This document shows positions 2,982-19,864 of a stretch of 64,000 nucleotides of DNA, in pieces (position 1 is the first letter of the stretch; every line of letters starts with the position of its first letter). Both the position numbers and the translations under genes were made by a program. This stretch comes from Candidatus Protistibacter heckmannii (GTDB lineage Bacteria; Pseudomonadota; Gammaproteobacteria; Burkholderiales; Burkholderiaceae): assembly GCA_025050535.1 (NCBI GenBank), contig JALBVF010000003.1, forward strand, positions 62,001-126,000, read 5' to 3'. The notes below the pieces were generated by a model. It did no database searches and was not told the origin of the DNA. It saw only the letters and a program-made list of their open reading frames with translations.

Positions 2982-3809
2982 TCACCAGGCATTCAATCCG
3001 CCGTCAATCATCAGATTTTGTCCAGTGACATAGCTGGATGCATCCGAGGCCAAAAAAACCAGGGCCCCCACCATCTCATCCGCCTGCGCCATGCGCGCCA
3101 TCGGAATGCGGCTCGAGTATTTCTTGCTGAACACGTCGTTCTGCCCGCTTTCCACTCCGCCGGGCGTCAAGGTATTGACGCGCACCCCTTTATCTCCCCA
3201 GTGCGTCGCCCAGTACCGGGTCAAGCCCACAACCCCGGCTTTCGAAGCGCTGTAGACGGGCGGCGTGTTGATCGCCTGCCCCAGATACTGCGAGCCCTCA
3301 TAGATCCGGGAATCCGGCCCCAGCACGCCATAGATGGAAGCGGTCTGGATGATCGAACCCTTGCCCCTTGCCGCCATCCTGGTCCCCACCGCCTGCGCCA
3401 CCAGAAACATGCCGTCCAGATTGACGGCCATGATTTCGCGCCAGACGTCCAAGGGGAACGACTCGGGCGGAGTGAAGAATTTTGAGAGGTCAGCGCCCTT
3501 GCTCGCGGCGTTGTTGTGCAACACGTCGATGGGCCCCAACGCGGCTTCCACCCAGTTCACCATCTCCAGAACCGAAGCCGGATCAGAGACGTCGCAGGCG
3601 ACGCCAATCGCCTCCGTCCCATGGGTGGCGTGCAGCTGGGCTGCAACCTCCTGCCCCCGCTCCTCGCTCACGTCAACCACCGCCACCTTTGCGCCAAAAT
3701 CGGCAAGGCCGGCGCAAAATCGTTGCCCCAGAATCCCCGCCCCGCCAGTCACCACGGCGACCTTTCCGCCGAGATCGAACAGCTTACGGTATTTGCCGGC
3801 ATTCAACAT
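2982..3809 (-). CDS. Short-chain dehydrogenase, PtmA-like
   Basis: 275 residues from the ATG at 3809. TAGGG lies about six bases upstream of it; a second ATG at 3815 directly abuts this site. Classical SDR layout: TGGAGILG at 21-28, NNAAS near 99, Ser158, Tyr186 and Lys190 (YSASK), and a C-terminal YVTGQNLMIDGG. The long insert between the Ser and the Tyr, containing IYEGSQYLG, resembles Campylobacter PtmA, an oxidoreductase of the flagellar legionaminic acid locus. It follows a PtmB-like cytidylyltransferase, the same pairing as ptmA-ptmB. The substrate is not defined by the sequence; action on an amino-sugar precursor of a nonulosonic acid is the best guess. Confidence 0.7.
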   Translation of the reverse strand: MLNAGKYRKLFDLGGKVAVVTGGAGILGQRFCAGLADFGAKVAVVDVSEERGQEVAAQLHATHGTEAIGVACDVSDPASVLEMVNWVEAALGPIDVLHNNAASKGADLSKFFTPPESFPLDVWREIMAVNLDGMFLVAQAVGTRMAARGKGSIIQTASIYGVLGPDSRIYEGSQYLGQAINTPPVYSASKAGVVGLTRYWATHWGDKGVRVNTLTPGGVESGQNDVFSKKYSSRIPMARMAQADEMVGALVFLASDASSYVTGQNLMIDGGLNAW

Positions 3810-3849
3810 ATTCATCCCTATTTTGTTTCGGCACCCAGACAAGCCCGCA

Positions 3850-4566
3850 TCATAAAACCCGCGCCGAACCAGCGGACGCAACCTTGCCCGCGAGCGCCTC
3901 GCCAATCACCAGATCCATGGCGGTGTCGATGTCCAGAGCCCTTTCCATTGGGATCTGCACCGCGCGCACCCTGCCATCGAAAAGACGGTCGGCGGTCATG
4001 ATGAAATCAGCCTTCGCCACATAAGCCACCGTCGTCACATCATAGAGCTCGGGCGCATCCTGACGACGATGATATACACCTTCCACCGCCAGCCTGACCA
4101 AGCCATCGGCCTCTCGCCTGACCATATTGAAATAGGGATTGCGTTCCGCCTCGCGCACAGTCAACACGACATCCGGCGCATAGGTCAGGAAGGCATCCAG
4201 ACAGCAATCGATGTCGGCTGCGATCCGCAAGGGCGAGGTGGGCGGCAGGCTCAGGAAAATATCCACCTTCTCGCCCGCATCTCTCAGAAATTGAATGGCA
4301 TGACGCCACGCAAGCCATTCGGGCGTTTGATCGCCGGCCAGCTCCTTGGGGCGGAGAAACGGAACCTGGGCGCCCGCTGCGCGCGCCGCCTCTGCGATTT
4401 CGGGATCGTCGGTGGAAACCACTACCTTGCGCACCCGCGGCAGCGACAAACCCAATTCAACCGCATGCGTGATCAGCGGCTTCCCTGCAATGGGCAGCAG
4501 GTTTTTACGGGGCAGCCCTTTCGAGCCTCCCCGCGCGAACACAAAAGCCACAATGTTTGTGTTCAC
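3850..4566 (-). CDS. CMP-nonulosonate (acylneuraminate) cytidylyltransferase, PtmB-like
   Basis: 238 residues. Start is a GTG at 4566 with GGAG five bases upstream. The nucleotide-binding motif ARGGSKGLPRKN occupies residues 11-22, as in NeuA, LegF and PseF. Further family marks are STDDPEIA near residue 51, LPPTSPLR near 107 and a C-terminal DIDTAMDL. It should activate a 2-keto-3-deoxy nonulosonic acid or similar acid with CTP. This is the second such enzyme in the window; the first lies in the Leg operon part at 16858-17580. The two differ clearly in sequence, so a second activated acid is possible. It lies between a Gfo/Idh gene (18 bp gap) and the PtmA-like SDR. Confidence 0.8.
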   Translation of the reverse strand: MNTNIVAFVFARGGSKGLPRKNLLPIAGKPLITHAVELGLSLPRVRKVVVSTDDPEIAEAARAAGAQVPFLRPKELAGDQTPEWLAWRHAIQFLRDAGEKVDIFLSLPPTSPLRIAADIDCCLDAFLTYAPDVVLTVREAERNPYFNMVRREADGLVRLAVEGVYHRRQDAPELYDVTTVAYVAKADFIMTADRLFDGRVRAVQIPMERALDIDTAMDLVIGEALAGKVASAGSARVL

Positions 4567-4584
4567 ACGGACTCCATCTCTGCA

Positions 4585-5517
4585 TCAAGGTTGATCACTG
4601 TCGCCGCGCCTCACCATCCATGTTTTGTGGGCGGCCGCATCCTCCGCCGCATCGATTAGGCGCAGGACGTCCAGGCCTTCTTCCAGGGAACACAACATGT
4701 TCTTTTCCCCCGCCTGCACGGCCATGTGCATGTTGATATAGGTTTGATCGCGCCCCGAGGAAAAGACCTCGATGTCCTCATTGACCGTCAATATATTCCG
4801 GATCAGATCGGCTTCGATGGTGTACCGCGCGGTATTGATCAGGAAGAACCTGCGGGTCAGCCGATCCAGATAGTTCAGCTGCACCGACACCACGGGGCAT
4901 CGCGGCGTGGCCAGCAACAGCGCGAAGACGTCGTCGCTATCGATCTCGAGCGGGCTGTATTGCCCTCCGATCGCCGCCACCCGATTCCAGCCACCCAGCA
5001 TCCAGGTCAGGTAATCCAGTTCATGACTCAGATCGCGCAAGGCGCCGCCGCCCAGTCCCGCGCTGGCCGAATAGGATTTCCGGTAGTCGGTGGCGGGACG
5101 CCAATGCGGCAGATATTGCCCGACATAGGCCTGCACCGACAAAACACGCTCCCCCTCCAGCAGGGCCTTGATCCTTTGCGTGATCGGGTGGAAGCGCAGA
5201 TTATAGGCGACGACGATGTTGCGAAACGCATTTTCCGGCAGGATCTCAAGGCGGCTGAATATCGGCTTTTCGACCAGCACGGTCCCCGTATATCCCAGGC
5301 CAGCGAGCGCCGACAAGGCGCCATGATGTTCGCTGGTGGCATTGGCGATCACGACATAGTCTGGATTCTGCTCGTCCAGCGCCTGCCCCAGGTCCGCATA
5401 CACGGCCGGAAAATCAATCTTCCGCCAGCTCACCACGGACACGCTGGCGCCAAGACTCTCTGTCACTTTGGCATGCAAAGCACCAATCGAGCCATAGCCG
5501 ACAATCAAGACCTTCAT
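4585..5517 (-). CDS. Gfo/Idh/MocA family NAD(P)-dependent oxidoreductase
   Basis: 310 residues. GYGSIG at 7-12 binds the dinucleotide, and EKP at 83-85 is the hallmark Lys-containing motif of the family. A later GGALRDLSHELDYLTWML holds the His and Asp expected near the active site. Such enzymes oxidise or reduce a ring hydroxyl of free or nucleotide-bound sugars. It is shorter than many members (about 350 residues) but has both domains. It lies between a GT4 glycosyltransferase and the PtmB-like gene, so it may serve that second activated sugar. The substrate is unknown. A second member of the family is at 10975-12063 and is not closely similar. Confidence 0.75.
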   Translation of the reverse strand: MKVLIVGYGSIGALHAKVTESLGASVSVVSWRKIDFPAVYADLGQALDEQNPDYVVIANATSEHHGALSALAGLGYTGTVLVEKPIFSRLEILPENAFRNIVVAYNLRFHPITQRIKALLEGERVLSVQAYVGQYLPHWRPATDYRKSYSASAGLGGGALRDLSHELDYLTWMLGGWNRVAAIGGQYSPLEIDSDDVFALLLATPRCPVVSVQLNYLDRLTRRFFLINTARYTIEADLIRNILTVNEDIEVFSSGRDQTYINMHMAVQAGEKNMLCSLEEGLDVLRLIDAAEDAAAHKTWMVRRGDSDQP

Positions 5518-5529
5518 GCGTGTCTCGGC

Positions 5530-6708
5530 TTAGTCATGTTGAAAAAATTTCCTTTCGGCGCTACCAAAAGATTGCCCCTGGGCGACGCGTGCCAGAAAGG
5601 AAAACGTTTCGGCCGAGCATTGCCGCCACGAATACCTTTTCGCCCTATCCGCCACCGCCTGTGCCAATTGTGTACGCAAAGCCGGCGAAGCCAACAGTTT
5701 ACGCAAGGCGGAGGCGATGTCCTCCGGATTCTCCGGGTCAAAATACACACCGGCGTCTCCCAGGACCTCGGGCATGGGACCGCGGTTGGAGCTGGCCGTC
5801 GGCAACCCGGCCGACATGCCTTCGAGCAAGATGATAGGGAGATTCTCGCAGCTCGACGCATAGAGAAACACATCCGCATGTGCATAGTGCGCCGGCAAAT
5901 CCTGATACGCCACGGCGCCATGGTAGATCACCCCATCGCCGTCGAGCCTCAGCGCCTCCAGCGTCTTCTTGAGACGTGTCAGCGCGGGCGGATAAGCCGG
6001 ACCGACAAGGCCCAGCCGGATCGGCAATCCTTCGTCCCGCAGCATCGCCACCGCCCTGGCCACCTTATTCTGGTGCTTGTACACATCAACGATGGAGACA
6101 TACAAAATCCGGATCGGGTTTTCCATTGCATATTGCGCCATGTCCTGCTGTACGCGAGGCGGGTGGGAAAACCTGGGGGCTATTCCATGAGGAATGATCG
6201 CGGTGAGCGCTCCAGTACCGCCAATGGACTTCAGCACAGTCTCTCTTGCGTATTGCGTCAGAAAAATAATGCCGTCGCTTCCGCGGAAGGTGCGTCCTTG
6301 CGTCAACCGGAGAAGCATCAGCTTCAAGGTCATCCAGGACCATCCGAAACGGCGCATCTCGCGCCATTCGAAGGGCAGAAGATTCTGACTGATGCTGACA
6401 ACCGGCCGGAAGGTCCCGGCATACGATCCGCCGGGAACCAGCAGCACATCGCACGCCGCCTGCCGCGCCAACCGGGAGAGCCGTCGATATTGCCACCACG
6501 ATCTGCGCAACAACCCCAGGTCCAGTTCGGGTTGCGCGGCCTTGACCAGCCACGGTTGATCGGCGAGCCGCGCAAGCGTCGCGCTGCCGCCCCAGACCAC
6601 CACCCGGGAGAATCCATCAGACTCCGGCCGCGCGGCCGCCAACAGCTCGGCAAGATGCGTCAAGCCGCCGCCGGCGCGGATATTGGATGCGTCAATGCCC
6701 AGGATCAT
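5530..6708 (-). CDS. Glycosyltransferase family 4 (GT-B)
   Basis: 392 residues. The glycine-rich N-terminal acceptor domain begins with ILGIDASNIRAGGGLTHL. The C-terminal donor domain holds ILYVSIVDVYKHQNK, then YASSCENLPIILLEGMSAG, which carries the conserved EGMSAGLP motif of GT4 enzymes, and FDPENPEDIA near the end. These retaining enzymes build the repeat unit on undecaprenyl phosphate at the inner face of the cytoplasmic membrane. The start ATG overlaps the stop of the upstream GT2 gene (ATGA), so the two are probably translated together. Donor and acceptor sugars cannot be told from the sequence. Confidence 0.85.
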   Translation of the reverse strand: MILGIDASNIRAGGGLTHLAELLAAARPESDGFSRVVVWGGSATLARLADQPWLVKAAQPELDLGLLRRSWWQYRRLSRLARQAACDVLLVPGGSYAGTFRPVVSISQNLLPFEWREMRRFGWSWMTLKLMLLRLTQGRTFRGSDGIIFLTQYARETVLKSIGGTGALTAIIPHGIAPRFSHPPRVQQDMAQYAMENPIRILYVSIVDVYKHQNKVARAVAMLRDEGLPIRLGLVGPAYPPALTRLKKTLEALRLDGDGVIYHGAVAYQDLPAHYAHADVFLYASSCENLPIILLEGMSAGLPTASSNRGPMPEVLGDAGVYFDPENPEDIASALRKLLASPALRTQLAQAVADRAKRYSWRQCSAETFSFLARVAQGQSFGSAERKFFQHD

Positions 6709-7634
6709 GGCGCACCACCATCGGCTTCGGAACGCCGCGCCGAACCGTGCAGCACCTCACGGACCAGCGACAAGAGAATCCAAGCCAACGCCTTGGCCTT
6801 CCACCGCAACGGCGCCTTGTTCCATAGATAAGGCGCCAGACTGCGCCTTGCATCCCGATGGTGGCCAAGCGTGAGAAAGGCCTGCCCCTGGGCCAGCCCG
6901 ATCCAATTGAATCCCAGCTCCGCATCCGCCGCGGCAAAATCCGCCGCGTGACGCATGCGGATCGCGGCCGTCGTGCTCAACTGCCGCTTGGCATTGCTGG
7001 TGTTCCCACCGCCCACCCAGTAGTACCCAAGCGTTTGGTCAAGCCGTACAAATTTCGCGGCGCGATGCGTCAATCTGATCCAGGCATCGTAATCTTCGAT
7101 CGCGACGAGCTCGCTCTCTTCGGACAGCCCTCCAATTTCCGTCAGACATGCGCGGCGGACAAGCACGCTGGAATTGTTAAGTGCATTTCCATGGGCAATC
7201 AGGTCTCTGGCCGCGGGCTCGCGCAATGCACGCGTTCGCGCAAGCCGACGCCTCGACATCGTCCCCCGGCCATCAGCCAGGAACAGATCGTGATACACCA
7301 CGTCGGCGCCGCGGTCCAACATCGCCATGGATGCTTCGAGCTTGGTGGGCGCCCACCAGTCGTCCGAGTCGAGAAAAGCGACGAATTCGCCCTGCGCTTC
7401 GCGGACACCCAGATTTCTTGAGGCGGCGATGATTCCCTGGTTGTGGATTTTCAGCAGACGGACCCGCGGATCCATGCAGGCCCGCACGACTGCATCGGTA
7501 TCGTCCGATGAATGATTGTCGACGACCAAGACTTCCCATGCGCCCAATGTCTGCGCGCGCACGGAATCCAATGCGCGCTGCAAATCCGCCGCGCGATTGT
7601 AGGTTGGAATGACAACGGAAACTCTTGGACGCAT
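6705..7634 (-). CDS. Glycosyltransferase family 2 (GT-A)
   Basis: 309 residues. The N-terminus, RVSVVIPTYNRAADLQRAL, is the GT2 nucleotide-binding strand, VVDNHSSDDT follows near residue 47, and LDSDDWW near 91 is the metal-binding DxD region. The C-terminal third is variable and shows no clear transmembrane helix. It is an inverting transferase for polysaccharide repeat-unit assembly; donor unknown. Its stop overlaps the start of the GT4 gene. A 56-bp gap separates it from the upstream epimerase-like gene. Confidence 0.85.
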   Translation of the reverse strand: MRPRVSVVIPTYNRAADLQRALDSVRAQTLGAWEVLVVDNHSSDDTDAVVRACMDPRVRLLKIHNQGIIAASRNLGVREAQGEFVAFLDSDDWWAPTKLEASMAMLDRGADVVYHDLFLADGRGTMSRRRLARTRALREPAARDLIAHGNALNNSSVLVRRACLTEIGGLSEESELVAIEDYDAWIRLTHRAAKFVRLDQTLGYYWVGGGNTSNAKRQLSTTAAIRMRHAADFAAADAELGFNWIGLAQGQAFLTLGHHRDARRSLAPYLWNKAPLRWKAKALAWILLSLVREVLHGSARRSEADGGAP

Positions 7635-7690: not shown

Positions 7691-8650
7691 TTATCGCTCA
7701 TGATTTCGGTAATGATCGAGGCAGAAACGAATCAAGGTATCCAGTTCCTTGTCGATCAAGTCCTTTGGACTGGTCTGGAATCCCAATGCCGAAAATTTCT
7801 CGCAGCGATAGTTCAGATCCAGGGTGGCGGACGCATTCGGATCCAGCTTGCGCTGAATATCCGGCTCACTGCCCAGGGCGATCTTGACTCTGCCCGCGAT
7901 TCTCTGCGCCATCTCCAATACGGTGGGCGCCCAGGACCCACCGATATTGAACAGCCCATCGGAAAGCTTCTCCGATGGCGCCTCGAGGAGATGGGTCAAC
8001 GCCCCGCAGACATACTCGATGGGCACGAAATCCCGGCGTTGCATGCCGGACGATTGAAGCACTATGCCACCATGCTCGACGGCCTGCCTGCACAGATCGT
8101 TGGTCAGCAGCATCCAGCAATTGACCGCCGGATGTGCGGGCGCGCCAAACGCATTGGAGAGGCGCACTGAAATGCCTTCAATCTCCCGCCCAAGATGCGC
8201 GGTGCGCACCGCATCCTCTCCGGCCCGATGACTGGTGGCGTAGGGATGCACCGGCATGGCGCAGCTTGTTTCCGTGATCGTTCCATGCAGCGGACTGCCG
8301 TAGACATGCGCGCTCGAAAGATAGAGCAGCCTTCGCACCCCGGACCGGGACGCGGCCCTCACCAGTCGCGCCGTCGCGGCGGCATTGAACTCGTATGCGA
8401 GCACGAGATCCGCCGCGCAATCCTGGGCATTGAGGCCAGCAAGATGCGCAACCACATCCACGCCCTCGCACAGCGCCTCCAGCGCCACGTCGGATTGCCA
8501 ATCGACCTGCGCGACACGCGCCCCCGGCAGCCAAGGCGCCGCCTCGTAACTGCGCGAGGCAAGACAGACTTCATGCTCCGTCGAAGCCGACAGGTATTGC
8601 CCCAGACGTCCGCCAAGGAAGCCAAATCCACCGGTGATCAATATCCGCAT
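7691..8650 (-). CDS. Extended SDR (NAD-dependent epimerase/dehydratase) with Tyr-x3-His
   Basis: 319 residues. Rossmann motif GGFGFLG at 7-13, SSAHVYG at 112-118 and Tyr137. The usual catalytic Lys four residues after Tyr is replaced by His141 (YATSH). The remainder of the fold, including LSNAFGAP and the C-terminal FNIGG stretch, looks intact, so this is probably a real variant and not decay. The gene follows the RmlC-like epimerase and CDP-glucose 4,6-dehydratase genes, so the simplest role is 4-ketoreduction of a CDP-6-deoxy-4-ketohexose, perhaps after C-methylation. This is inferred from the neighbourhood only. Confidence 0.7.
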   Translation of the reverse strand: MRILITGGFGFLGGRLGQYLSASTEHEVCLASRSYEAAPWLPGARVAQVDWQSDVALEALCEGVDVVAHLAGLNAQDCAADLVLAYEFNAAATARLVRAASRSGVRRLLYLSSAHVYGSPLHGTITETSCAMPVHPYATSHRAGEDAVRTAHLGREIEGISVRLSNAFGAPAHPAVNCWMLLTNDLCRQAVEHGGIVLQSSGMQRRDFVPIEYVCGALTHLLEAPSEKLSDGLFNIGGSWAPTVLEMAQRIAGRVKIALGSEPDIQRKLDPNASATLDLNYRCEKFSALGFQTSPKDLIDKELDTLIRFCLDHYRNHER

Positions 8651-8656
8651 GCGCGC

Positions 8657-9106
8657 CTATCGATGTTGAATCTGCCAATCGTATGGAATGGACGCATCGA
8701 ATGCCGGCTTGCGTTCGATCTCCGCGGGATCATGCGACAGCGTGGCGCAGTTGGCGACAATGGAAGCCTCGGTGCCGATCCCTTTCCAGCCGTTCCAGAC
8801 CAGCGGCGGCACCGTCAACAGGAAATAATTCTCCGGCGACATGAAATATTCGTCCACCTGCCCGAAGGTCTTGCTTTCAGGCCGATCGTCGAACAGCACG
8901 CATTTGATGGCGCCGTGCACCACCGCGTAATTGAGCGTCATGCGTTTATGCAGATGCCATGCCTTGATGGCGCTGGGATAGGTGCAGGAGAAATAAACCT
9001 CCCCGAAGCGGGAAAATGCCGGCGAATCCTCGCGCAGCATATGCATGACCTTTCCCCGCTCATCGAAAATCTGGCGCAGTGGCGTAACGATCACTCCATC
9101 GATCAT
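8657..9106 (-). CDS. RmlC-like (dTDP-4-dehydrorhamnose 3,5-epimerase family) sugar epimerase
   Basis: 149 residues, somewhat shorter than the 180 or so of RmlC. The cupin-type core shows FGEVYFSCTYPSAIKAWH with His51 and His53 (WHLHK), equivalent in position to the catalytic His region of RmlC, and VPPLVWNGW in the second half. Known relatives epimerise C3 and/or C5 of nucleotide-linked 4-keto-6-deoxy sugars. Its start overlaps the stop of the CDP-glucose 4,6-dehydratase gene (ATGA), so it probably acts on CDP-4-keto-6-deoxyglucose or a C-methylated derivative. Whether one or two positions are epimerised cannot be said. Confidence 0.7.
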   Translation of the reverse strand: MIDGVIVTPLRQIFDERGKVMHMLREDSPAFSRFGEVYFSCTYPSAIKAWHLHKRMTLNYAVVHGAIKCVLFDDRPESKTFGQVDEYFMSPENYFLLTVPPLVWNGWKGIGTEASIVANCATLSHDPAEIERKPAFDASIPYDWQIQHR

Positions 9107-10170
9107 GGCAGCTCCGGGAAATAGTCATGAATTTGCGCGCGCGTGACCTCTTCCACATCTTTTCCGCCAAGGTAGGCCGCATACCAATGCGCGGTTGCAT
9201 CCAATGTCTTGTCCACCGGCCAGCGCGGAGACCATCCGAGCTGCTGATGCGCCTTGTCGCAGTTCAATTGCAGAAGCTGCGCCTCGTGCTGCACATGCGC
9301 CGGTTGCTCGACCTGAATGCTCCCCCGGCCGAGACTCGCCACGATGGCCCGGGCCACATCCTCGACCGTGCGCACCTCGATGCTGGAAGGGCCAAAGTTC
9401 CATGCGCTATCAAACGCCTGCGGCCGCGCGTGCAGATTCGCTGCCAAAAGCACATAGCCGGAGAGGGGCTCCAGCACGTGCTGCCAGGGACGGGTCGCTT
9501 TGGGATTGCGCAGCACAATCGGCATTCCCGCCTCGATGGCGCGAATGCAGTCGGGAATGATGCGATCCGCCGCCCAATCCCCTCCCCCGATCACATTGCC
9601 GGCCCGGGTCGACGCCGCACCCAGGCCATCCGGGTCCTGCAGGTAAGAGCGGGCATAGGCAGAGAAGACGACTTCGGCCGCTCCCTTGGATGCGCTGTAG
9701 GGATCACGCCCTCCCAGTCTGTCGTTTTCACGATAGCCCCAAACCCATTCCACGTTCTCGTAGCATTTGTCCGAGGTGATGTAGACCAGCGAGCGAACCG
9801 ATGCGCAATGACGCACCGCCTCGAGAAGATGCACCGACCCCATCACATTCGCCTGAAACGTTCCGACGGGATCTTGATAAGAGCGCTTGACCAGCGCCTG
9901 CGCCGCAAGATGGAAGACGTATTCCGGTTGAAAATCCAGCAGCGCCTTTTTCAAGCCCGCCGCGTCGGCGATGTCGCCGACGATATGGTGGATGCGCGGC
10001 GCGAGCTTCAGCAATTCGAAATGACTTGGCCCCGGTTCGGGCGCAAACGCGTAGCCCATCACATCGGCTCCCACCTCCTTGAGCAGGAAGGTCATCCACG
10101 ATCCCTTGAAGCCGGTATGGCCTGTGATGAAGACGCGCTTCCCCGCAAACGAGGCGAGCGCATCCCGCAT
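9103..10170 (-). CDS. rfbG: CDP-glucose 4,6-dehydratase
   Basis: 355 residues from the ATG at 10170, two bases after the stop of rfbF; an in-frame GTG at 10185 would overlap rfbF. The N-terminus KRVFITGHTGFKGSWM contains the family's TGxTGFKG signature. Further marks are VFHLAAQALVKRSY, YITSDKCYEN (Thr-Ser-Asp-Lys in place of the usual SSSS) and YSASKGAAE with the catalytic Tyr-x3-Lys. ATRPWQHVLEP near the centre is typical of RfbG. It converts CDP-D-glucose to CDP-4-keto-6-deoxy-D-glucose. It directly follows the CDP-glucose synthase gene. No homologue of the 3-dehydrase RfbH or its reductase was found next to it, so a 3-deoxy sugar is not indicated. Confidence 0.92.
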   Translation of the reverse strand: MRDALASFAGKRVFITGHTGFKGSWMTFLLKEVGADVMGYAFAPEPGPSHFELLKLAPRIHHIVGDIADAAGLKKALLDFQPEYVFHLAAQALVKRSYQDPVGTFQANVMGSVHLLEAVRHCASVRSLVYITSDKCYENVEWVWGYRENDRLGGRDPYSASKGAAEVVFSAYARSYLQDPDGLGAASTRAGNVIGGGDWAADRIIPDCIRAIEAGMPIVLRNPKATRPWQHVLEPLSGYVLLAANLHARPQAFDSAWNFGPSSIEVRTVEDVARAIVASLGRGSIQVEQPAHVQHEAQLLQLNCDKAHQQLGWSPRWPVDKTLDATAHWYAAYLGGKDVEEVTRAQIHDYFPELP

Positions 10171-10172
10171 GC

Positions 10173-10952
10173 TCAACGCACCCACGGCGCACTCCCCTTG
10201 GCGTATATGGCATTCAACAATTGATATTCCCGGCTTGTATCCATCGGCTGCCAGAATCCATCATGCTGATACATGGCGAGTTGCCGGTCGGCGACCAGTC
10301 TGGCCATCGGCTCTTGTTCGAACATCAGGTCTTCCCGGTCGTCCAGGTAGTTGAACAGCCCGCGGCTGCACACGAAGAAGCCGCCGGAGATCCGGCCCGC
10401 AGTCGCCTGCGGCTTTTCATTGAACTCGGAAATGACGCCATCGTCGCCGGCGACCAGCTCGCCGAACCGACCCGGCGGACGCACGCCGGTCACGGTCAAG
10501 GTCTTGCCGTGCGCCTTGTGAAAAGCAAGCAGCTTGTCGATGTCCACGTTGCCGACGCCGTCGCCGTAGGTGAGCATGAAATGCTCATCGTTGCCGATGT
10601 AGTTCCTGATCCTGCGCACCCGCGCGCCGGTCATCGCATTCAAGCCGGTTTCGGCGAGCGTCACCCGCCAATCGGATTCGTCATGATCGTTGTGGAATTG
10701 CAGGTCACTGGAACGGCTCAGCGAAATGGTGAAATCCTTGGTGTGGGCTTCGTAGTTCAGGAAAAAATCTTTGATGACCTGGCTCTTGTATCCCAGGCAC
10801 AGCACGAACTCCTTGTGGCCGAAGCTGGCGTAGCGCTTCATGATGTGCCAGAGGATCGGATACCTGCCGATCGGAATCATCGGCTTGGGGATTTCATCGG
10901 CCACATCGCGGATGCGGGTGCCAAAGCCGCCGCACAGAATCACCACTTTCAA
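10173..10952 (-). CDS. rfbF: Glucose-1-phosphate cytidylyltransferase
   Basis: 259 residues, the standard length. The N-terminal MKVVILCGGFGTRIRD is the nucleotidyltransferase signature with the GGxGTR loop, followed by KPMIPIG. The centre holds FMLTYGDGVGNVDI with the metal-binding Asp, and VTGVRPPGRFGEL, which is characteristic of RfbF. The C-terminus has the DGFWQPMDTSREY stretch. It makes CDP-glucose from glucose-1-phosphate and CTP and feeds the adjacent RfbG. It lies 22 bp downstream of a Gfo/Idh gene. Cytoplasmic. Identification is very secure. Confidence 0.95.
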   Translation of the reverse strand: MKVVILCGGFGTRIRDVADEIPKPMIPIGRYPILWHIMKRYASFGHKEFVLCLGYKSQVIKDFFLNYEAHTKDFTISLSRSSDLQFHNDHDESDWRVTLAETGLNAMTGARVRRIRNYIGNDEHFMLTYGDGVGNVDIDKLLAFHKAHGKTLTVTGVRPPGRFGELVAGDDGVISEFNEKPQATAGRISGGFFVCSRGLFNYLDDREDLMFEQEPMARLVADRQLAMYQHDGFWQPMDTSREYQLLNAIYAKGSAPWVR

Positions 10953-10974
10953 GATACCACCTCCATTGCCGCCT

Positions 10975-12063
10975 TCAGTCGCGCAGTATCAGCGCTTCCG
11001 ACATGGCGAGTTCGTTCAATGCATACTGCAGATCGGCGTCGGCCACTCCCGCAGTCAATTTTTCTGCCAACCAAGGAGTCAGCGCCTGCCTGTATCGCGC
11101 CTTAACCTGATCCGCGATCCGGCAGGCGGCGAGCGCAATCCCGATATCCAACCGCGCACGCAGCGGCATATCCATATCGTCCCCGACGCGCCCCAGAAAT
11201 ACACCAAGCATGCGGGCGAGCGGCCTTTCGGCGCTATCCCACAATGGATCGGCAACTATAGCCTCTCCACCACGCCTGAGAACCCCGGGCTCTGACGAGA
11301 AATCCAGGGACAACGGCCCTTTGTCGGTGTCAAGTTCGACAACGCGCCGCCTCGTCTCTCCATTCCTGATCATCGTCAGGCTGCACGGCACTCCCGCCCA
11401 CCGCAACGTCACTTCGACATGCGCTCCGCCTTTGTAGACCGCCACATCCGTACATTCACCTTGCTGCGATCCGAGCAGAAATCCCAGTATCGACACACAG
11501 TGCGGCAGCCAGTCCATAAAAACCGGCAGCGCCGGATCGAATCGCTTGTTCTCCCCATGGCGCCGCTCCGCCACGGGATCCTCGAATCTGATGCGCACCT
11601 CGCGCGCGGGCCCGGCTTGCGAAAGCGCCTGCGACAGCGCTTCGACATAACGCGCGAACAGGAAGACATTGGCCGCGTAAAACGACGCCTGCTTCTCCCT
11701 CGCCAACGCCGTCAAGGCCCGCAGCGCGGCCTCCGAGAGTGCAACGGGCTTCTCCGACAAGACCGCGGCGCCATACTCCAACGCCCACTCGATGGTGGGC
11801 ACATGATCCTTCGCCGCGTTGACCACGATGACCGCGGCGGACCGGCCCTCTACCAACTGCGGCCAATCCTCAGTCACGCGCACGTGGTCCGCCGCCTTGC
11901 GCCCCGCCAACCATGCGGCCATGCCAGATGCGTTCCTGGGAGACCGGACGACAATGCTGGCGCCCTCGGGTGCGATATTCAGCAACACGCCGACCATGAC
12001 CTGCGCCCAGCGTCCACCGCCAATCACAATGATCTGGTCCGGACCTGAGGGCTGCACCATCAT
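10975..12063 (-). CDS. Gfo/Idh/MocA-type oxidoreductase (divergent)
   Basis: 362 residues. The N-terminus IIVIGGGRWAQVMVGVL is a GxGxxxxx Rossmann loop, and AVLSEKPVALSE near residue 95 provides the EKP motif. The rest fits the alpha/beta catalytic domain of the family, though the C-terminal 100 residues are divergent. The start ATG at 12063 overlaps the stop of the C-methyltransferase gene, and rfbF follows. The context suggests oxidation or reduction of a CDP-linked sugar in a branched-sugar route, but the substrate is not defined. Alternatives include a dehydrogenase for an amino acid or organic acid substituent. Confidence 0.65.
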   Translation of the reverse strand: MMVQPSGPDQIIVIGGGRWAQVMVGVLLNIAPEGASIVVRSPRNASGMAAWLAGRKAADHVRVTEDWPQLVEGRSAAVIVVNAAKDHVPTIEWALEYGAAVLSEKPVALSEAALRALTALAREKQASFYAANVFLFARYVEALSQALSQAGPAREVRIRFEDPVAERRHGENKRFDPALPVFMDWLPHCVSILGFLLGSQQGECTDVAVYKGGAHVEVTLRWAGVPCSLTMIRNGETRRRVVELDTDKGPLSLDFSSEPGVLRRGGEAIVADPLWDSAERPLARMLGVFLGRVGDDMDMPLRARLDIGIALAACRIADQVKARYRQALTPWLAEKLTAGVADADLQYALNELAMSEALILRD

Positions 12064-13301
12064 CAGTCCGCGGGGAAATCCGCCGTGCTCAGAATGTCCA
12101 CGATCTGCCCTTTGTAGCCGTGCTCAGTCATATAGCTTCGGATTTCTTTCGGAATATGCCAAGCCAGATTGAGCAAGGGCAAGGTTTGATCGGGGTAGCT
12201 GAACAAGGCCTCATCGGACTTGATGGGGATCCGCGTGCTGGGCAAATAGTGGCCGATCTTCAAAGAGTCCGGTTTCTCATGGACAGCGGAAATCGTCTTT
12301 TCGTCGATACCGAGAAGCTTGACCAGGATGGCGGCGCGCCCCGGGAAAGCCTTGGCGCGCAACGCGCCGTATTTGCTGGTCAGCTCGGCAAGCTCTTCGC
12401 TCTTTCTGACACGCCAGCGGCCGATATTCGCGCTCATTGTCGCAAAGCGCTCCGCGAAGGCGGCTTCCCGATCACGGATTTCCTGCACGTTCTCCGGGTC
12501 GCGGCGCATGTCGGGAGGGCTGATGAACACCCGGATGTTCCCGCCGTACCGAGAGGGGAATTCCACTTCCGAAATCCCCATGCCCAGGGAGCGCGCCATC
12601 CACTCGAACGAGCTGTAGCTATAGGTGCGGGGGTGTTCGTGATAGAAGGTATCGAACTGATTGGTCGCCAGTACCGAGCCCAGATAGTGATTCTCGATGA
12701 CGAGCACAGTCTTTGGACCCGCCAATATCTTCAATGAGGTAAGCACCTCGCACAGGTTCTCGATATGCGCGAAGACATTGGTGAGGGTGATGAAATCCGG
12801 TTTGCCCTGGGACTCGATGATCTGCTCCGCCACTGTCGGCGAAAGAAAATCGTTGATCACAAAATGCTTCTTCTCGCTGGCGTCCGCCGCCGCGCCCGTC
12901 GGCTCGATGCCGCATGTTAGCGCGCCACGCTGGCGGAAGAAATCCAGCAGGCTGCCGTCATTGCAGCCGACATCCAGAACAGTCTTCCCCGCCAGGGATC
13001 CGAAGCGGTTCTCGCAGGATTCGGCCAGACTGGCCATCCCATTCAGGACGTCCACAGTAAAACGTGAACGGTAGTGATAGGTCTTTGGAAACAGATCATG
13101 CTTGGGCACCTGAAACCGCTGATGCGCGGTCAGGCACGTCTTGCAAAACAAGATCTCGATCGGATATTCACGGCAGACCCGAGAATTTCCGACCTCGACC
13201 AGGTCGTCACACATCGGATGCAATCCGAGGTTCAATACGGATTCAAGCTGGTCGTTACCGCAGACTTCGCACGACTTAATTTCATTGAATTGGGTTTGCA
13301 T
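12063..13301 (-). CDS. Sugar C-methyltransferase (TylC3/NovU type)
   Basis: 412 residues, the usual length. The N-terminal zinc-binding module has CEVC at 11-14 and CKTC near 53-56. The SAM-binding core has VLDVGCNDGSLLDFF. The active-site region FDTFYHEHPRTYSYSSF carries the Tyr-His-Glu-His pattern of TylC3-like enzymes, which methylate carbon 3 (or 5) of nucleotide-linked 4-keto-6-deoxy sugars after forming an enolate. The C-terminal domain (GNIRVFI, then KLLGIDEK and YSYPDQTLPLLN-like features) is present. It starts the group with Gfo/Idh, rfbF and rfbG, so the substrate is probably a CDP-sugar. Family known; CDP linkage inferred. Confidence 0.85.
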   Translation of the reverse strand: MQTQFNEIKSCEVCGNDQLESVLNLGLHPMCDDLVEVGNSRVCREYPIEILFCKTCLTAHQRFQVPKHDLFPKTYHYRSRFTVDVLNGMASLAESCENRFGSLAGKTVLDVGCNDGSLLDFFRQRGALTCGIEPTGAAADASEKKHFVINDFLSPTVAEQIIESQGKPDFITLTNVFAHIENLCEVLTSLKILAGPKTVLVIENHYLGSVLATNQFDTFYHEHPRTYSYSSFEWMARSLGMGISEVEFPSRYGGNIRVFISPPDMRRDPENVQEIRDREAAFAERFATMSANIGRWRVRKSEELAELTSKYGALRAKAFPGRAAILVKLLGIDEKTISAVHEKPDSLKIGHYLPSTRIPIKSDEALFSYPDQTLPLLNLAWHIPKEIRSYMTEHGYKGQIVDILSTADFPAD

Positions 13302-13312
13302 AATATTTCCGC

Positions 13313-14344
13313 TTAATGCGCGAGGCCCTGGGATGGCGACAGGCGCATGATCAACCTTTTAGCCTTTCTCACGAAATACAAAAATAAGGATAGATAGGAG
13401 TTGGGATAAACGGCATTCGCCGCCAACAGCCTGAACGGCTTTATATAGGCCACGCCCGACACCTCGCGACGCAATATCATGTAGACCAGATCCGGGATGA
13501 AGTACCGCAAGGCAAAATTCCGACACTCCAGATAACGCCACAGGGACATGCCATTTCCCCGGTATTCGTCGAGCGCCTCGATCAATCTCACGCTGCGCAC
13601 CAGGGGATACATCGGAGCCCATTCTCTCGCGCCGGAAAGGCAGACGCTGAGAGGCTTACTCTGAAAATAGGCCCGCGACCCTGAAAACGCTTTGGCGAAT
13701 ATTTTAACGTGCGGAAAGGTATTATCAAAATACGCAAAAGTCCGCATATCCTTGATTGCCTTCGCATTTAAGACCCCGGCATTTTCCAGCCATTTCTCCC
13801 GCCTGAACACCGACAAAAACATTCCCCCGAGAAAATCAAAGGATATTTTGGGGTCGATAAGGTCAAAAAAGGCCAGCTCGCCGTCTTTCTTCCTGGTCGA
13901 AAAGGGCTGCATATCCGACGGCAGATTCGACACGTCGAAAGGCTGCGGATGCGACAGCACAAACTCCGTCGTCAGGTGGAATGAATTGACATAGAAAAAA
14001 TCCACATGGGGATGCTTTTCAATCAATTCCAAGAGCGTTTTCAAGGCCTCCGGCATCAACAGGTCGTCGTCTCCGACAAGCCAGGCAAATTCGCCGGTCG
14101 CCATGTCGACGACCTTGAGAAAATTCGCCGGGATCCCTAGGTTTTCCTGATTGCGTTCATAGCGGAGAGGGACCAGCTGCTTGGCCTCTTCCACGATTTG
14201 CGCGGTGTCGTCGGAAGAGCCATTGTCGGATATGCATACCTCGACACCGGAATGCTGCATAATTCCTGACGATGCGATGGACCGCAGGCAATTCCGCAGA
14301 TGTCTTGCCCGGTTGTAGGTGGGAATGCAGATGGACAGTCTCAT
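13313..14344 (-). CDS. Glycosyltransferase family 2 (GT-A)
   Basis: 343 residues. RLSICIPTYNRARHLRNCL at the N-terminus and ISDNGSSDDTAQIV near residue 40 are the GT2 nucleotide-binding strands, and WLVGDDDLLMPEAL near 90 is the DxD motif. The C-terminal region has a basic, partly hydrophobic tail. The gene overlaps the upstream GT-B-like gene by four bases and precedes the C-methyltransferase gene by 11 bp. It probably adds one sugar of the repeat unit; donor unknown. Confidence 0.82.
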   Translation of the reverse strand: MRLSICIPTYNRARHLRNCLRSIASSGIMQHSGVEVCISDNGSSDDTAQIVEEAKQLVPLRYERNQENLGIPANFLKVVDMATGEFAWLVGDDDLLMPEALKTLLELIEKHPHVDFFYVNSFHLTTEFVLSHPQPFDVSNLPSDMQPFSTRKKDGELAFFDLIDPKISFDFLGGMFLSVFRREKWLENAGVLNAKAIKDMRTFAYFDNTFPHVKIFAKAFSGSRAYFQSKPLSVCLSGAREWAPMYPLVRSVRLIEALDEYRGNGMSLWRYLECRNFALRYFIPDLVYMILRREVSGVAYIKPFRLLAANAVYPNSYLSLFLYFVRKAKRLIMRLSPSQGLAH

Positions 14345-15565: not shown

Positions 15566-16861
15566 TCAATTGACCTTGCGGAAAACAGGCTTGATAGCCG
15601 GCCCGACAAGATAATGCTCGACGCCCCGTTCAAGCGCCGCACGGTATATCGGCAAGGCCTTTTCCAGGGCCTGCGCCGTCAGGGCCAACTCCTCCTCGCC
15701 ATGGCGATAGGAGATCGCGATCCATGGCATCAACACGCCATTGCGCACCATTTCCTGGGAAAACAGCGTACGCAAGGGCAGCGAGCTCACTCCGGACGCG
15801 TCCAGTGTGAGATAGTAGGGCGAGCACGCGATGCCTCCCGCCTTGAAGCTATGCGAGACGCCATGTTCCTCGGCCTTTTCGCGCAGCAGCGCGATCAGCT
15901 TCGCGCCATAGTCCCAAAGGTGCTCGACGACGGGGTGCTCGCGCATGAACTTCATCGTGGCGACGAAGGCGCCCAGCCCCGACATTTCCGCACCGTGCGT
16001 CGTGGAGAGCAGAAAGACTCTTTCGCGTCCCTCAAATTCGATCGACCCAAGTTCCATGATCTCCCTGCGGCCGGCGACACAGGAAACCGAGAATCCGTTC
16101 GCCATAGCTTTCCCGAACGTGCAGAGGTCGGGCTTGATGCCATACAGATGCTGAGCGCCCTTCAGATGCCAGCGAAAGCCGGTGATCATTTCGTCGACTA
16201 CGAAGACCACGCCGTGCTTTTTGCACAGCGCCTGCACCCCTTCAAGGAAACCCTCCTTGGGGTTTTCCACGGTCGCGGCCTCCATGGCCACGCAGGCGAA
16301 CTGATCCGGATACTCGGCGAACAACGCCTCCAGCGAGGACAGGTCGTTGTAGTTGAACAGCTTGGTATGCGCCAGCGTGTCGTCCGGAATGCCTCGCGTC
16401 AGAACGGTGGAGCCGATAAACCAATCGTCATAGGAGAGGAAAGGCTGGTCGGAGCATCTCGCCACCAGGGTCCTGCCGGTGTATGCGCGCGACAGCTTGA
16501 CCGCCGCCGAGACCGAGGTGGAGCCGTTCTTGGTGAACTTCACCATGTCGATGGCGTCGATCAGATCGATCAGAGTTTCTGCCGCCTCGAGCTCGATCGT
16601 GGACGCACGCGTCAGGTTGTTGCCGTGTTCGATCTCCCGCAGGGCGCCGGCGTTGACTTCGGGCTCGGCGTAACCGATGTTGACCGCGCGCAACGCCATG
16701 CCGTAGTCCAGATAGCGATTGCCCTCAGGGTCGAATACGTAGACGCTCTTTCCCATGGAAAGAATCTGCGGTGCGTTCTGGGGAAACTGGTCAAAGCCCC
16801 GCGAGTAGGTGTGCGCGCCGCCCGGGATGGCCCTGAGAAGCCGCTGCTGGTAATCGCTCAT
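15566..16861 (-). CDS. Class III aminotransferase, glutamate-1-semialdehyde aminomutase-like
   Basis: 431 residues from the ATG at 16861, which overlaps the stop of the cytidylyltransferase gene (ATGA). PLP-binding features: NGSTSVSAAVKLSRAYTGR near 112-130, VVDEMITGF at 221-229 with the ring-binding Asp223, and Lys251 in FGKAMANGF for the internal aldimine. The N-terminal PGGAHTYSRG resembles the HemL PGGVNSPVR motif but is not identical, so it is not expected to be the heme enzyme. In sugar clusters such HemL-like enzymes are often annotated but rarely assigned. It could make an amino group on a sugar or an amino-acid or amino-alcohol substituent. Function open. Confidence 0.75.
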   Translation of the reverse strand: MSDYQQRLLRAIPGGAHTYSRGFDQFPQNAPQILSMGKSVYVFDPEGNRYLDYGMALRAVNIGYAEPEVNAGALREIEHGNNLTRASTIELEAAETLIDLIDAIDMVKFTKNGSTSVSAAVKLSRAYTGRTLVARCSDQPFLSYDDWFIGSTVLTRGIPDDTLAHTKLFNYNDLSSLEALFAEYPDQFACVAMEAATVENPKEGFLEGVQALCKKHGVVFVVDEMITGFRWHLKGAQHLYGIKPDLCTFGKAMANGFSVSCVAGRREIMELGSIEFEGRERVFLLSTTHGAEMSGLGAFVATMKFMREHPVVEHLWDYGAKLIALLREKAEEHGVSHSFKAGGIACSPYYLTLDASGVSSLPLRTLFSQEMVRNGVLMPWIAISYRHGEEELALTAQALEKALPIYRAALERGVEHYLVGPAIKPVFRKVN

Positions 16862-17580
16862 TTCAATATTCCTTTGATCTGTGCATCCATCAGTGCATCG
16901 GCGATGACGAAATCGGCAATGCCGTCGATTTCGATGGCCTTGTATTTGTCCACCACCCAGGGGGCCGTCTTGTCGTGATAGAAGCTGCGGTGCCATCTGA
17001 AGGTCTCGACACGGCTCGCATAAATGGAGCCCTCGAGAAAATAGTAGTCCTCCTTCAGATCCTGTCTGCGCAGTCCCGTCGGCTGAATGCCGCTCATCGG
17101 CTTCAGAAAGGCGCCGTCCAGCACATACAGGAATGAGGGATGGGAGGTGTCGACCTGCGCAACCCCGACGACGCTCTCCACGTCGGGATTGGATTCGAGC
17201 AACGCGAGGGCCCCCGAGATATCAGAGGTCTCACGCAGTGGCGAGGTCGGCTCCAACAGGACAAGGTATTCGTACACCTCTCCGGCCTGCTTCAGGGAAT
17301 CGAGCGTATGCAGGATCACGTCGGTACTGGATGCGGTGTCGCCCGACAGCTCCGGAGGCCGCATGAAGGGAACCGTGGCGCCGTAGTCCTTCGCAATCGA
17401 CGCAATCTCTTCGCTATCGGTGCTGACCACCACTTTGTCGACATAGCCGCAACCAAAGCCTTTCTCGATGCTCCATGCAATCAAAGGTTTGCCGCACATT
17501 CTGCGAATATTTTTCCCCTGGAGCCCCTTGGAGCCCGCCCGTGCAGGGACGATGGCCAGAACACGCTTGTTATTGATCAT
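16858..17580 (-). CDS. legF: CMP-legionaminate (nonulosonate) cytidylyltransferase, LegF-like
   Basis: 240 residues. The N-terminus VLAIVPARAGSKGLQGKNIR is the CMP-sialate synthetase signature, followed by KPLIAWSIE, STDSEEIA and LEPTSPLRE. The C-terminal IEIDGIADFVIADALM carries the acidic metal-binding pair. It should couple CTP to the 9-carbon acid made by the LegI-like synthase. It lies 20 bp after the PtmE-like gene and overlaps the transaminase gene by four bases. Legionaminic acid rather than sialic or pseudaminic acid is inferred from the LegB/LegC/LegG set upstream; the protein alone does not settle the substrate. Confidence 0.85.
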   Translation of the reverse strand: MINNKRVLAIVPARAGSKGLQGKNIRRMCGKPLIAWSIEKGFGCGYVDKVVVSTDSEEIASIAKDYGATVPFMRPPELSGDTASSTDVILHTLDSLKQAGEVYEYLVLLEPTSPLRETSDISGALALLESNPDVESVVGVAQVDTSHPSFLYVLDGAFLKPMSGIQPTGLRRQDLKEDYYFLEGSIYASRVETFRWHRSFYHDKTAPWVVDKYKAIEIDGIADFVIADALMDAQIKGILK

Positions 17581-17600
17581 TGATATGCGAAACGCCTTCG

Positions 17601-18680
17601 TCAGGAAAGTGTGCCGAAATTATTGGCTTGCCGATAATCTTCAGGCCGACCGACATCCAGCCATGGCTCGTGCATTGGATAGGCGATGGTGCGTTCCGCT
17701 CCCTGTTGCAAGCGGCCGAACAGCGTGGGCATGTCGCACGCCTCTCCCGCTTTCAACACGGCCAATGCCGAAGGCTCAAGCACATAGATGCCCGCGTTGA
17801 TATGCGTTCGGTTGATCGGCTTCTCCTCGAAGTCGACGATATCGACTCCGCTCGTGCGGACGACGCCGAACGGATGCTGCCACTCATGCAGACGCACGGC
17901 CATCGTCGCCAGCGCACCGTGCCGGCAATGGAAATCCAGGAGGTCGGCGTAGCGGATGTCGGTGAGGACATCCCCGTTCGACACCAGGAACGGCTCCGTG
18001 GGGACTGGATTCATCAGGCTGATGGCGCCGGCCGTGCCCAGCGGCGACTCTTCGTGCAGATATTCGATCCGCACTTGCCAGCGCGCGCCGTCCCCGAAAT
18101 ACTCTTCGATCATGTGGCCGAGATAATGAACCGCCAGCACAAAATGCCGGAAGCCCTCTGCCTTGGCCTGCTCGATGATGTGCTCCAGCATCGGCTTGTC
18201 GCCGACGGGCAGCATCGGTTTCGGGCAGTTCTCCGTATGCGGCCGCAGACGCATCCCTTTCCCGCCGCACATGATCACCATCATGTTGGACCGCTCCGGG
18301 GCCGTCATCAGATTACCCCAGATGTGCAGCCCCACGACACGCTGCTCCTTGTCCACGACCGGGAGCTGACTGATCTTGTTCGCCTGCATGAGCTGAACGA
18401 TCGCTTCGCGGCCAAGCTGCGGCGGAACCACAAATGGGTCCCGCTGTATGATGGGCGCCAGGGAACTGTTCATATCGAGCCCGCGCAGCAGGCCCCTGCG
18501 GATGTCCCCGTCGGTCACCGTCCCCAGCAGCACTCCGCCGGGGCCGACCACAAGCGCGACCTGCAGCGAACTCTCGTCAAGATTGCGGATAGCCTGCTGC
18601 ATGGTCGCATCCGCCGGCAGCAAGGCGCGCCGCCATGTCTCGTCGGACGGTGAAATGGGAGTGTTGGATCTGCTCGACAT
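17601..18680 (-). CDS. ptmE: CBS-pair sugar-1-phosphate nucleotidyltransferase, PtmE-like
   Basis: 359 residues with two parts. Residues about 15-120 form a pair of CBS motifs (GGVLLGTVTDGDIRRGLL and LPVVDKEQRVVGLH). From about 130 comes an NTP-transferase domain with MVIMCGGKGMRLRPHT, KPMLPVGDKPM and VSNGDVLTD. This layout is that of Campylobacter PtmE/LegE, a glucosamine-1-phosphate guanylyltransferase that starts the GDP-sugar route to legionaminic acid. It lies between legG-like and legF-like genes. The GDP preference is known for the family member and only inferred here. No clear PtmF (GlmS-like) gene was seen in the window. Confidence 0.8.
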   Translation of the reverse strand: MSSRSNTPISPSDETWRRALLPADATMQQAIRNLDESSLQVALVVGPGGVLLGTVTDGDIRRGLLRGLDMNSSLAPIIQRDPFVVPPQLGREAIVQLMQANKISQLPVVDKEQRVVGLHIWGNLMTAPERSNMMVIMCGGKGMRLRPHTENCPKPMLPVGDKPMLEHIIEQAKAEGFRHFVLAVHYLGHMIEEYFGDGARWQVRIEYLHEESPLGTAGAISLMNPVPTEPFLVSNGDVLTDIRYADLLDFHCRHGALATMAVRLHEWQHPFGVVRTSGVDIVDFEEKPINRTHINAGIYVLEPSALAVLKAGEACDMPTLFGRLQQGAERTIAYPMHEPWLDVGRPEDYRQANNFGTLS

Positions 18681-18687
18681 GCTTGGA

Positions 18688-19845
18688 TCAGGCTAAATCG
18701 TAAAAGGATTTCTTTAATAGCGCTTCCAGGGAAACGCTGCGCAGGGCTGCCACAATTTTCTCGCTAGCCCCGCCATCGCCATAGGGATTGCGGACCGTGG
18801 CGAGCATGGACTGGAACGACGGCGAATATAGCCTTTCGATGGCATCTCCGATCGCAACCCTCTCCGGAAGGCAGTCGATCACGCTCTCGGCCTTGAGCCG
18901 GCCCTTTTGGCGATCGCCAATATTCACGGTCCCCTTGAAGAAGCTGGGCGCTTCGGCCAAGCCGCTGGATGAATTGCCCACGATGCCGTCCACGAACTGC
19001 ATGCACGACAAATACCGCAGCTGCCCCAAGGAGACGAACATGTGCGCATTCTCATGCGCCGCGGAAAATTGCTCGAGCATCTGCATCATCACCCTGCTGT
19101 CGGTATCCGCATTGGGCATTGTGAAGATCAATTGCGTGTCTTCCAGCTGCGCCAAGGCTGCGAGAAGTTCTTCCATCTGATGTGCCGCCGATCCCGCTTC
19201 CAAGGTCACGGGATGAAATGTGATCAGCAGGTTCTTCTTGCCGAAGCTGAAGCCAAGCGAATCCTCCAGGGCGGCCCGCTCCATCAACGCCAGGTGCTTG
19301 ATATTGTCGACGCCCATGCCGCCGACCAGATAGACCTTCTCCGGCTGCTCGCCCATCTGCACCACTCTGCGCCGATACTCTTCTGCCGCGACGAAATGCA
19401 AGTGCGACATCTTGGTGATGGAGTGACGGATCGCCTCGTCAAAGGCCCCCTCCGTAGTTTCCCCTCCATGCAGATGCACCACCGGGATCCGTGCGATCAA
19501 GGCTGCCGCGACCGCCGAAAATATTTCAAAACGATCGCCAAGCACCAGCAGGAGATCGGGCCGCAGCTGTTCAAATGCATCCCCGAACCCGATCATTCCC
19601 AGACTCATCGATTTCGTGACGCCGGAGGGCGTGTCCGAACTCAGCAGCATCTCCACTTTGCGATGTATCGGCAGTCCGTCCGCCTCGATTTCCCGGAAGG
19701 TCAGGCCAAACTCCGGCGCCAGATGCATGCCGGTGACGACGACTTGAAGTTCCAGCTCCTCGGACGCCGCGATGGCGAGCATGACCCTGCGCAACAAGCC
19801 ATATTCAGCCCGGCTGCCGGTGACGACGCAGATCTTTCGGGTCAT
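18688..19845 (-). CDS. legG: Hydrolysing NDP-sugar 2-epimerase, LegG/NeuC family
   Basis: 385 residues. The N-terminus KICVVTGSRAEYGLLRRVM is typical of NeuC/LegG/NnaA. Further marks are LVLGDRFEIFSAVAAALI, HLHGGETTEGAFDEAIRHS, and a C-terminal GNSSSGLAEAPSFFKGTVNIGDRQKGR that binds the nucleotide. The enzyme inverts C2 and removes the nucleotide, giving a free 2,4-diacetamido-2,4,6-trideoxymannose in the legionaminic acid route. It lies 19 bp after the NeuB/LegI-like gene and 7 bp before ptmE. Assignment to LegG rather than NeuC rests on the surrounding LegB and LegC genes. Confidence 0.87.
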   Translation of the reverse strand: MTRKICVVTGSRAEYGLLRRVMLAIAASEELELQVVVTGMHLAPEFGLTFREIEADGLPIHRKVEMLLSSDTPSGVTKSMSLGMIGFGDAFEQLRPDLLLVLGDRFEIFSAVAAALIARIPVVHLHGGETTEGAFDEAIRHSITKMSHLHFVAAEEYRRRVVQMGEQPEKVYLVGGMGVDNIKHLALMERAALEDSLGFSFGKKNLLITFHPVTLEAGSAAHQMEELLAALAQLEDTQLIFTMPNADTDSRVMMQMLEQFSAAHENAHMFVSLGQLRYLSCMQFVDGIVGNSSSGLAEAPSFFKGTVNIGDRQKGRLKAESVIDCLPERVAIGDAIERLYSPSFQSMLATVRNPYGDGGASEKIVAALRSVSLEALLKKSFYDLA

Positions 19846-19864
19846 GGCGCGACACTCATGTTAG

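Follow-up and report, generated by a model that had tools for sequence, protein, structure and literature searches.

A gene cassette of Candidatus Protistibacter heckmannii that probably directs synthesis of a CDP-linked, C-methyl-branched 6-deoxyhexose

A 64,000-nucleotide stretch of the Candidatus Protistibacter heckmannii genome (contig JALBVF010000003.1 of assembly GCA_025050535.1, positions 62,001 to 126,000; hereafter the window) carries on its minus strand six nearly contiguous genes. Read from position 13301 down to 7691, they encode a sugar C-methyltransferase (M), a Gfo/Idh/MocA oxidoreductase (O), glucose-1-phosphate cytidylyltransferase (RfbF), cytidine diphosphate (CDP)-glucose 4,6-dehydratase (RfbG), an RmlC-like cupin (E) and an extended short-chain dehydrogenase/reductase (SDR; protein S). 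Three of the junctions are overlaps, of one base (position 12063) between M and O, 13 bases between RfbF and RfbG and 4 bases between RfbG and E; the other two leave gaps of 22 and 6 bases (Table 1). Five of these genes had been recognised, with exactly these limits and on this strand, in a sequence-only reading that preceded the present analysis; it overlooked O, a conserved oxidoreductase whose gene overlaps the end of that for M. The cassette sits in a surface-polysaccharide locus, family 2 glycosyltransferase (GT2) genes lying directly upstream of M and directly downstream of S, as they likewise do in L114, one of the related loci considered below. Together the six genes probably supply the polysaccharide encoded around them with a CDP-activated 6-deoxyhexose that bears a C-methyl branch.

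Table 1. The six-gene cassette and its flanking glycosyltransferase genes (positions in the window; aa, amino acids; SAM, S-adenosylmethionine).
Gene	Product	Positions	Strand	Profile or motif
GT2	GT2 glycosyltransferase, directly upstream of M	13313..14344	minus	PF00535
M	Sugar C-methyltransferase, 412 aa, SAM-dependent, zinc-binding N-terminal domain	12063..13301	minus	PF08421, PF13489, PF08484
O	Gfo/Idh/MocA oxidoreductase, 362 aa, candidate ketoreductase	10975..12063	minus	PF01408
RfbF	Glucose-1-phosphate cytidylyltransferase, 259 aa, TTG start as listed	10173..10952	minus	TIGR02623
RfbG	CDP-glucose 4,6-dehydratase, 360 aa	9103..10185	minus	TIGR02622; TSDK and YSASK motifs
E	RmlC-like cupin, 149 aa, without the RmlC catalytic residue set	8657..9106	minus	PF00908
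S	Extended SDR, 319 aa, YxxxH replacing YxxxK	7691..8650	minus	PF01370
GT2	GT2 glycosyltransferase, directly downstream of S	6705..7634	minus	PF00535

The three domains of M all score above cut-off and lie on a single chain. A structure model built from 66 homologues (pLDDT 93.9) matches MtmC over the full chain (4rv9; VIA Z 44.5, rmsd 2.3 over 399 residues), as it does KijD1 and TcaB9 (Z 43-44), the next matches being unrelated methyltransferases at Z 17. Residues Y76, H181, Y222, E224 and H225 of TcaB9, taken as catalytic from the mutants named in structure-entry titles, correspond to Y75, H179, Y220, E222 and H223 of M, and these five are invariant across the 66 clade homologues. The same five residues are also carried by SgcA3 of the C-1027 cluster, a C5-type methyltransferase, so that they do not settle between C3 and C5, and we infer rather than observe a C3 position for the methyl group.

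RfbG passes the NCBIfam equivalog TIGR02622 comfortably (471.7 bits against a cut-off of 278.45) and has intact catalytic motifs, TSDK at 137 and YSASK at 163. RfbF passes its own equivalog, TIGR02623, narrowly (304.2 against 300.25 bits). Family profile searches, on which all genome-wide statements here are based, find one true RfbG in the genome, M as its sole PF08484 protein and, in agreement with the sequence-only reading, no match to the 3-dehydrase RfbH (NF011936) at E 1e-100. Gmd and Fcl, as would be expected of a GDP-virenose-type pathway, are absent from the nine genes on either side of M in the window.

The association of M with RfbF and RfbG is conserved. Genome contigs were searched by means of an alignment in which M was joined by its two closest relatives, loci being selected by M alone; the scan kept 80 of 136 confirmed relatives. 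Linkage within nine genes was counted over 82 loci, the window included and two genomes counted twice. Neighbouring genes were called as plain open reading frames, and loci derived from metagenome bins may be truncated or misbinned. Members of the clade occur in Pseudomonadota, Nitrospirota, Acidobacteria, Myxococcota, Bacteroidota, Cyanobacteria, Actinomycetota, Planctomycetes and Campylobacterota, among others. RfbG accompanies M in 60 of the 82 loci and RfbF in 62, while RmlB does so in 4, Gmd and RfbH in 2 each, and RmlA in 1. Directly after M and on the same strand, 60 loci encode a Gfo/Idh protein, either O itself (18) or a divergent form, O' (42). Two Helicobacter loci (L184 and L186) are atypical for the clade in that its member lies beside an RfbH-scoring protein (487-490 bits) and an RmlC-like protein. 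On a 45-kb Legionella adelaidensis plasmid bearing O-antigen genes (L207), a C-methyltransferase 30% identical to M is adjacent to a Gfo/Idh gene, and RfbF and RfbG lie about 3.4 kb past the methyltransferase.

How common this arrangement is can be judged from the rfbG side. Among 398 Pseudomonadota genomes we found 99 rfbG loci, and within 8 kb of rfbG there was a PF08484 C-methyltransferase without RfbH in 44, RfbH only in 26, both in 4 and neither in 25, some of these last lying at contig ends. A C-methyltransferase without RfbH is thus a common kind of rfbG locus, and the two genes seldom share one. The 48 C-methyltransferase domains are all on the rfbG strand. Since the background is 0.34 PF08484 matches per genome over the 398 genomes, this linkage is far above chance; the set to which the sequence-only reading had drawn attention, in which RfbF and RfbG are joined by a sugar C-methyltransferase but not by RfbH, is real and recurrent. 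Two clearly separate spacings occur: the C-methyltransferase follows RfbG directly in 17 loci and leaves room for one gene in 23. In annotated plasmids the intervening gene is RmlC, for example in Desulfolutivibrio, where the order is RfbF, RfbG, RmlC, C-methyltransferase, acyltransferase and SDR. The C-methyltransferases found near rfbG mostly reach about 200 bits with PF08484, whereas M reaches 52. A third type of methyltransferase, represented by L200:10801-11967 and by low-scoring PF08484 matches, has the C-terminal part of PF08484 only and no zinc domain; it comes after C-methyltransferase genes in several loci, and four genomes have such a low-scoring match close to both RfbG and RfbH.

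O scores 39.3 bits with PF01408 (cut-off 24), and its EKP (104) and DxxxH (184) motifs are invariant in 18 homologues. O' occupies the position of O in L124 and L149 and carries the EKP motif. O is probably the ketoreductase of the set, being the better candidate for this role. Neither E nor S is canonical. E belongs to PF00908 (38.4 bits, cut-off 27); with the RmlC equivalog TIGR01221 it reaches 20.7 bits, below the cut-off of 155.75. In the numbering of E. coli RmlC it shows R59K, K72A, H119N, Y132A and Y138H, D169 is absent, and H62 alone is kept of the seven catalytic residues. As a control, the RmlC proteins of vinelose-type loci (see below) have R59, H62, K72, H119, Y132 and D169 in 36 of 36 cases and Y138 in 29, with Phe in the other 7. 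Because of the loss of these residues we reject the filing of E as an RmlC epimerase, and the epimerase activity proposed in the sequence-only reading, whether at C3 or C5, is not supported. S is an SDR by family, as had been proposed (PF01370, 121.7 bits), and has YATSH at 137 where SDRs have YxxxK; the catalytic lysine is found in none of 12 aligned homologues. Taken together, the missing RmlC residues of E and the YxxxH of S render an "epimerase plus reductase" interpretation unsafe. The two proteins co-occur in 13 of the 15 loci that have E.

The pathway that we favour would begin with the formation of CDP-glucose by RfbF and its conversion by RfbG to CDP-4-keto-6-deoxyglucose. M would then transfer a methyl group from SAM onto a carbon neighbouring the 4-keto group, most likely C3, and O, which is translationally coupled to M, would later reduce the ketone. 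E and S would bring about a further change, which may be an isomerisation, an epimerisation or a second redox step. Because RfbH is absent, 3-deoxygenation is not expected. The use of a CDP-sugar by M, the position and configuration of the methyl branch and the parts assigned to O, E and S are predictions, drawn, like every functional statement made here, from sequence, gene order and predicted structure.

M might instead be a 5-C-methyltransferase of the NovU/SgcA3 type, in which case the product would be a 5-C-methyl (gem-dimethyl, noviose-like) CDP-sugar. The five catalytic residues, identical in SgcA3 and the C3 enzymes, would allow this, and the novobiocin-type set, composed of a synthase, a dehydratase, an RmlC-like protein, a C-methyltransferase and an SDR, is similar in outline. 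However, M is about as distant from SgcA3 (24% identity) as from the C3 enzymes (25-26%), so that similarity does not favour C5. Moreover, in a Legionellaceae genome bin (L180) Gmd, Fcl, a 253-aa gene and an M-clade member lie in a row, with no RfbG. This set resembles the virenose locus of Coxiella (see below), and since virenose is a 3-C-methyl sugar the likeness may be a hint in favour of C3. The C-methyl sugars of lipopolysaccharide (LPS) that are named in the literature we found are also 3-C-methyl, namely 3-C-methyl-D-mannose in Helicobacter pylori (PMC12961483, PMC9912281) and, going by a title cited in PMC5644692, 3-C-methyl-D-rhamnose in Phyllobacterium trifolii. We therefore regard a C5 product as unlikely.

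Several observations weigh against the CDP-linked pathway as we have drawn it. RmlB (463 bits) and RmlA (515 bits), both over cut-off, are encoded on other contigs of the genome, so that dTDP-4-keto-6-deoxyglucose is available to M. The L180 locus suggests that nucleotide use can change inside the clade of M. O' is marginal for Pfam, reaching 23.3 of the 24 bits or giving no match. Furthermore, in our tree the clade of M and that of the vinelose-type methyltransferases lie on separate sides of a branch, each with 100/100 support, and Azotobacter thus appears to offer a parallel and not the same enzyme. KijD1 sits on a very long branch of this tree, a Streptomyces finlayi sequence is too long-branched to inform it, and the branching order among the dTDP enzymes was not used. 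M could thus act on dTDP-4-keto-6-deoxyglucose made by RmlA and RmlB, with RfbF and RfbG feeding a separate, plain CDP-6-deoxysugar; the C-methyltransferases with solved structures do use dTDP-sugars. Against this stand the position of M, the only PF08484 protein of the genome, directly with RfbF and RfbG, and the recurrence of that linkage across phyla, where linkage with RmlA and RmlB does not recur. We find the dTDP alternative rather improbable, and a CDP-sugar remains our preferred substrate for M.

What E does bears on where the ketone lies when M acts. If E were a 3,4-ketoisomerase-like cupin of the FdtA/QdtA type, the ketone would move to C3 and the methyl group might be placed on C4 or C2. 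The loss of R59, K72, H119, Y132, Y138 and D169 would fit, as would an HxHK stretch in E, a profile match with FdtA (2pa7) at E 0.022 over the whole length, and the fold of QdtA (Z 12.5 over 128 residues). RmlC-type epimerases nevertheless score better both by sequence (E 1e-5 to 1e-4) and by fold (Z 14-15). The best structural match is 3ejk (Z 19.9), a protein itself without assigned activity; the model of E is too weak (pLDDT 67.8) for its reaction to be read from it, and H51 is not invariant in the family. We thus consider a ketoisomerase doubtful, if somewhat easier to entertain than a C5 product. It has also to be asked whether E and S are decayed or non-catalytic, since both lack canonical catalytic residues and 30 loci hold RfbG, M and O' without either; the product would then be the simple one of a short cassette of RfbF, RfbG, M and O'. 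The identity of E to the window copy across phyla (58-83%), which makes it one of the better conserved members of the set, and the joint occurrence of E and S argue for a conserved function, and we hold decay to be very unlikely.

The full set of M, O or O', RfbF, RfbG, E and S recurs in 11 of the 82 loci, the window included, and two further loci have it without a detected RfbG. It is found in Nitrospirota, Polaromonas, Legionellaceae, Marinimicrobia, Bacteroidota and Synechococcus, among others; RfbF, RfbG and E do not keep a fixed order, and many long cassettes have a gene of about 340 aa ahead of M. The literature searched yielded no description of M's clade with a Gfo/Idh partner, nor of a six-gene cassette in which cupin and SDR are both non-canonical. 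A tentative proposal, which may well not hold, is that the cassette represents an undescribed CDP-sugar pathway present in many phyla. E, as a non-epimerase cupin, and S, as an SDR without the catalytic lysine, would first move the ketone or rearrange the ring, and the Gfo/Idh enzyme would finish, the product being a C-methyl sugar distinct from vinelose, virenose and evalose. Beside the vinelose-type operon treated below, the window set is a second, separate cassette, the cupin and SDR of which cannot be read by analogy.

The surroundings of the cassette hold other sugar genes. Upstream of it, on the minus strand at 16858-23680, a second set reads like NeuA, a CBS-domain nucleotidyltransferase, NeuC, NeuB, NeuD, an aminotransferase and LegB, which suggests a nonulosonic acid of the legionaminic type. 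LegB also occurs near the cassette in L114 and L121. Beyond the glycosyltransferases, the minus strand at 2982-5517 encodes another Gfo/Idh protein (4585-5517), an NeuA-like cytidylyltransferase that is the second of its kind here (3850-4566) and an SDR (2982-3905), perhaps for a further CMP-sugar.

Among characterised systems, TylC3/MtmC, KijD1 and TcaB9 share with M the domains, the five catalytic residues and the full-length fold, but they act on dTDP-sugars and are 23-26% identical to M. The remark in the sequence-only reading that sugar C-methylation is best known on dTDP-sugars holds for such characterised enzymes; the CDP case is nevertheless an old one, in the form of CDP-vinelose, and the gene pattern has already been visible in annotation. 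In Sinorhizobium meliloti, SMb21416-SMb21418 (ddhA, ddhB and an NDP-hexose 3-C-methyltransferase) form a putative CDP set by annotation only (PMC4053727). As in the window, cytidylyltransferase, CDP-glucose dehydratase and C-methyltransferase are adjacent, but the last is about 27% identical to M. Our literature search for CDP-glucose with a C-methyltransferase returned this annotation and papers on virenose only. For Coxiella burnetii a GDP-virenose route with the TylCIII-like methyltransferase CBU0691 has been proposed (PMC3204966, PMC3539893). It resembles the pathway proposed for the window in using a C-methyltransferase to supply a 6-deoxy-3-C-methyl hexose to the O-polysaccharide, and the M-clade member of L180 stands beside Gmd and Fcl, but the sugar is carried on GDP and RfbF and RfbG are lacking.

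The CDP-3,6-dideoxyhexose pathways of the abequose, tyvelose and yersiniose type share RfbF and RfbG with the window but need RfbH, which its genome lacks. In Pseudomonadota a C-methyltransferase is found at more rfbG loci than RfbH is, and it is probable that many loci annotated on the model of the 3,6-dideoxyhexose pathway produce methyl-branched sugars. If so, C-methylation of CDP-sugars, long known as chemistry, would become a rule that can be read from genes.

CDP-vinelose is a nucleotide sugar of Azotobacter vinelandii known from the literature of the 1960s. Vinelose, 6-deoxy-3-C-methyl-2-O-methyl-L-talose, was isolated from this bacterium as an acyl-bearing CDP derivative, and C-methylation on CDP is therefore not new as chemistry; the word vinelose was not found in the literature searched. 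One genome of our survey (G490), which has three nitrogenase reductase genes, is almost certainly that of A. vinelandii. Its one RfbG and one PF08484 protein are encoded in a single operon (L199), with the order RfbF, RfbG, RmlC, C-methyltransferase, hexapeptide acyltransferase, SDR, PF04989 (rhamnosyl O-methyltransferase family), PhyH and TylF-like O-methyltransferase. The activities predicted for these proteins are those that CDP-vinelose requires, and we propose that L199 may be the CDP-vinelose pathway, which would provide a testable operon in a well-studied bacterium. Because the two clades of methyltransferases are separated in the tree and E is not a canonical RmlC, we reject the notion that the window cassette is itself a vinelose operon. 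Like the window, L199 combines RfbF, RfbG, a PF00908 protein, a three-domain C-methyltransferase and an SDR, with no RfbH in the operon, and CDP-vinelose is itself a CDP-linked C-methyl 6-deoxyhexose. Unlike the window, L199 has acyltransferase, O-methyltransferase and PhyH genes and no Gfo/Idh gene, and its RmlC, with the full catalytic residue set, and its SDR, with YNLSK, are canonical where E and S are not.

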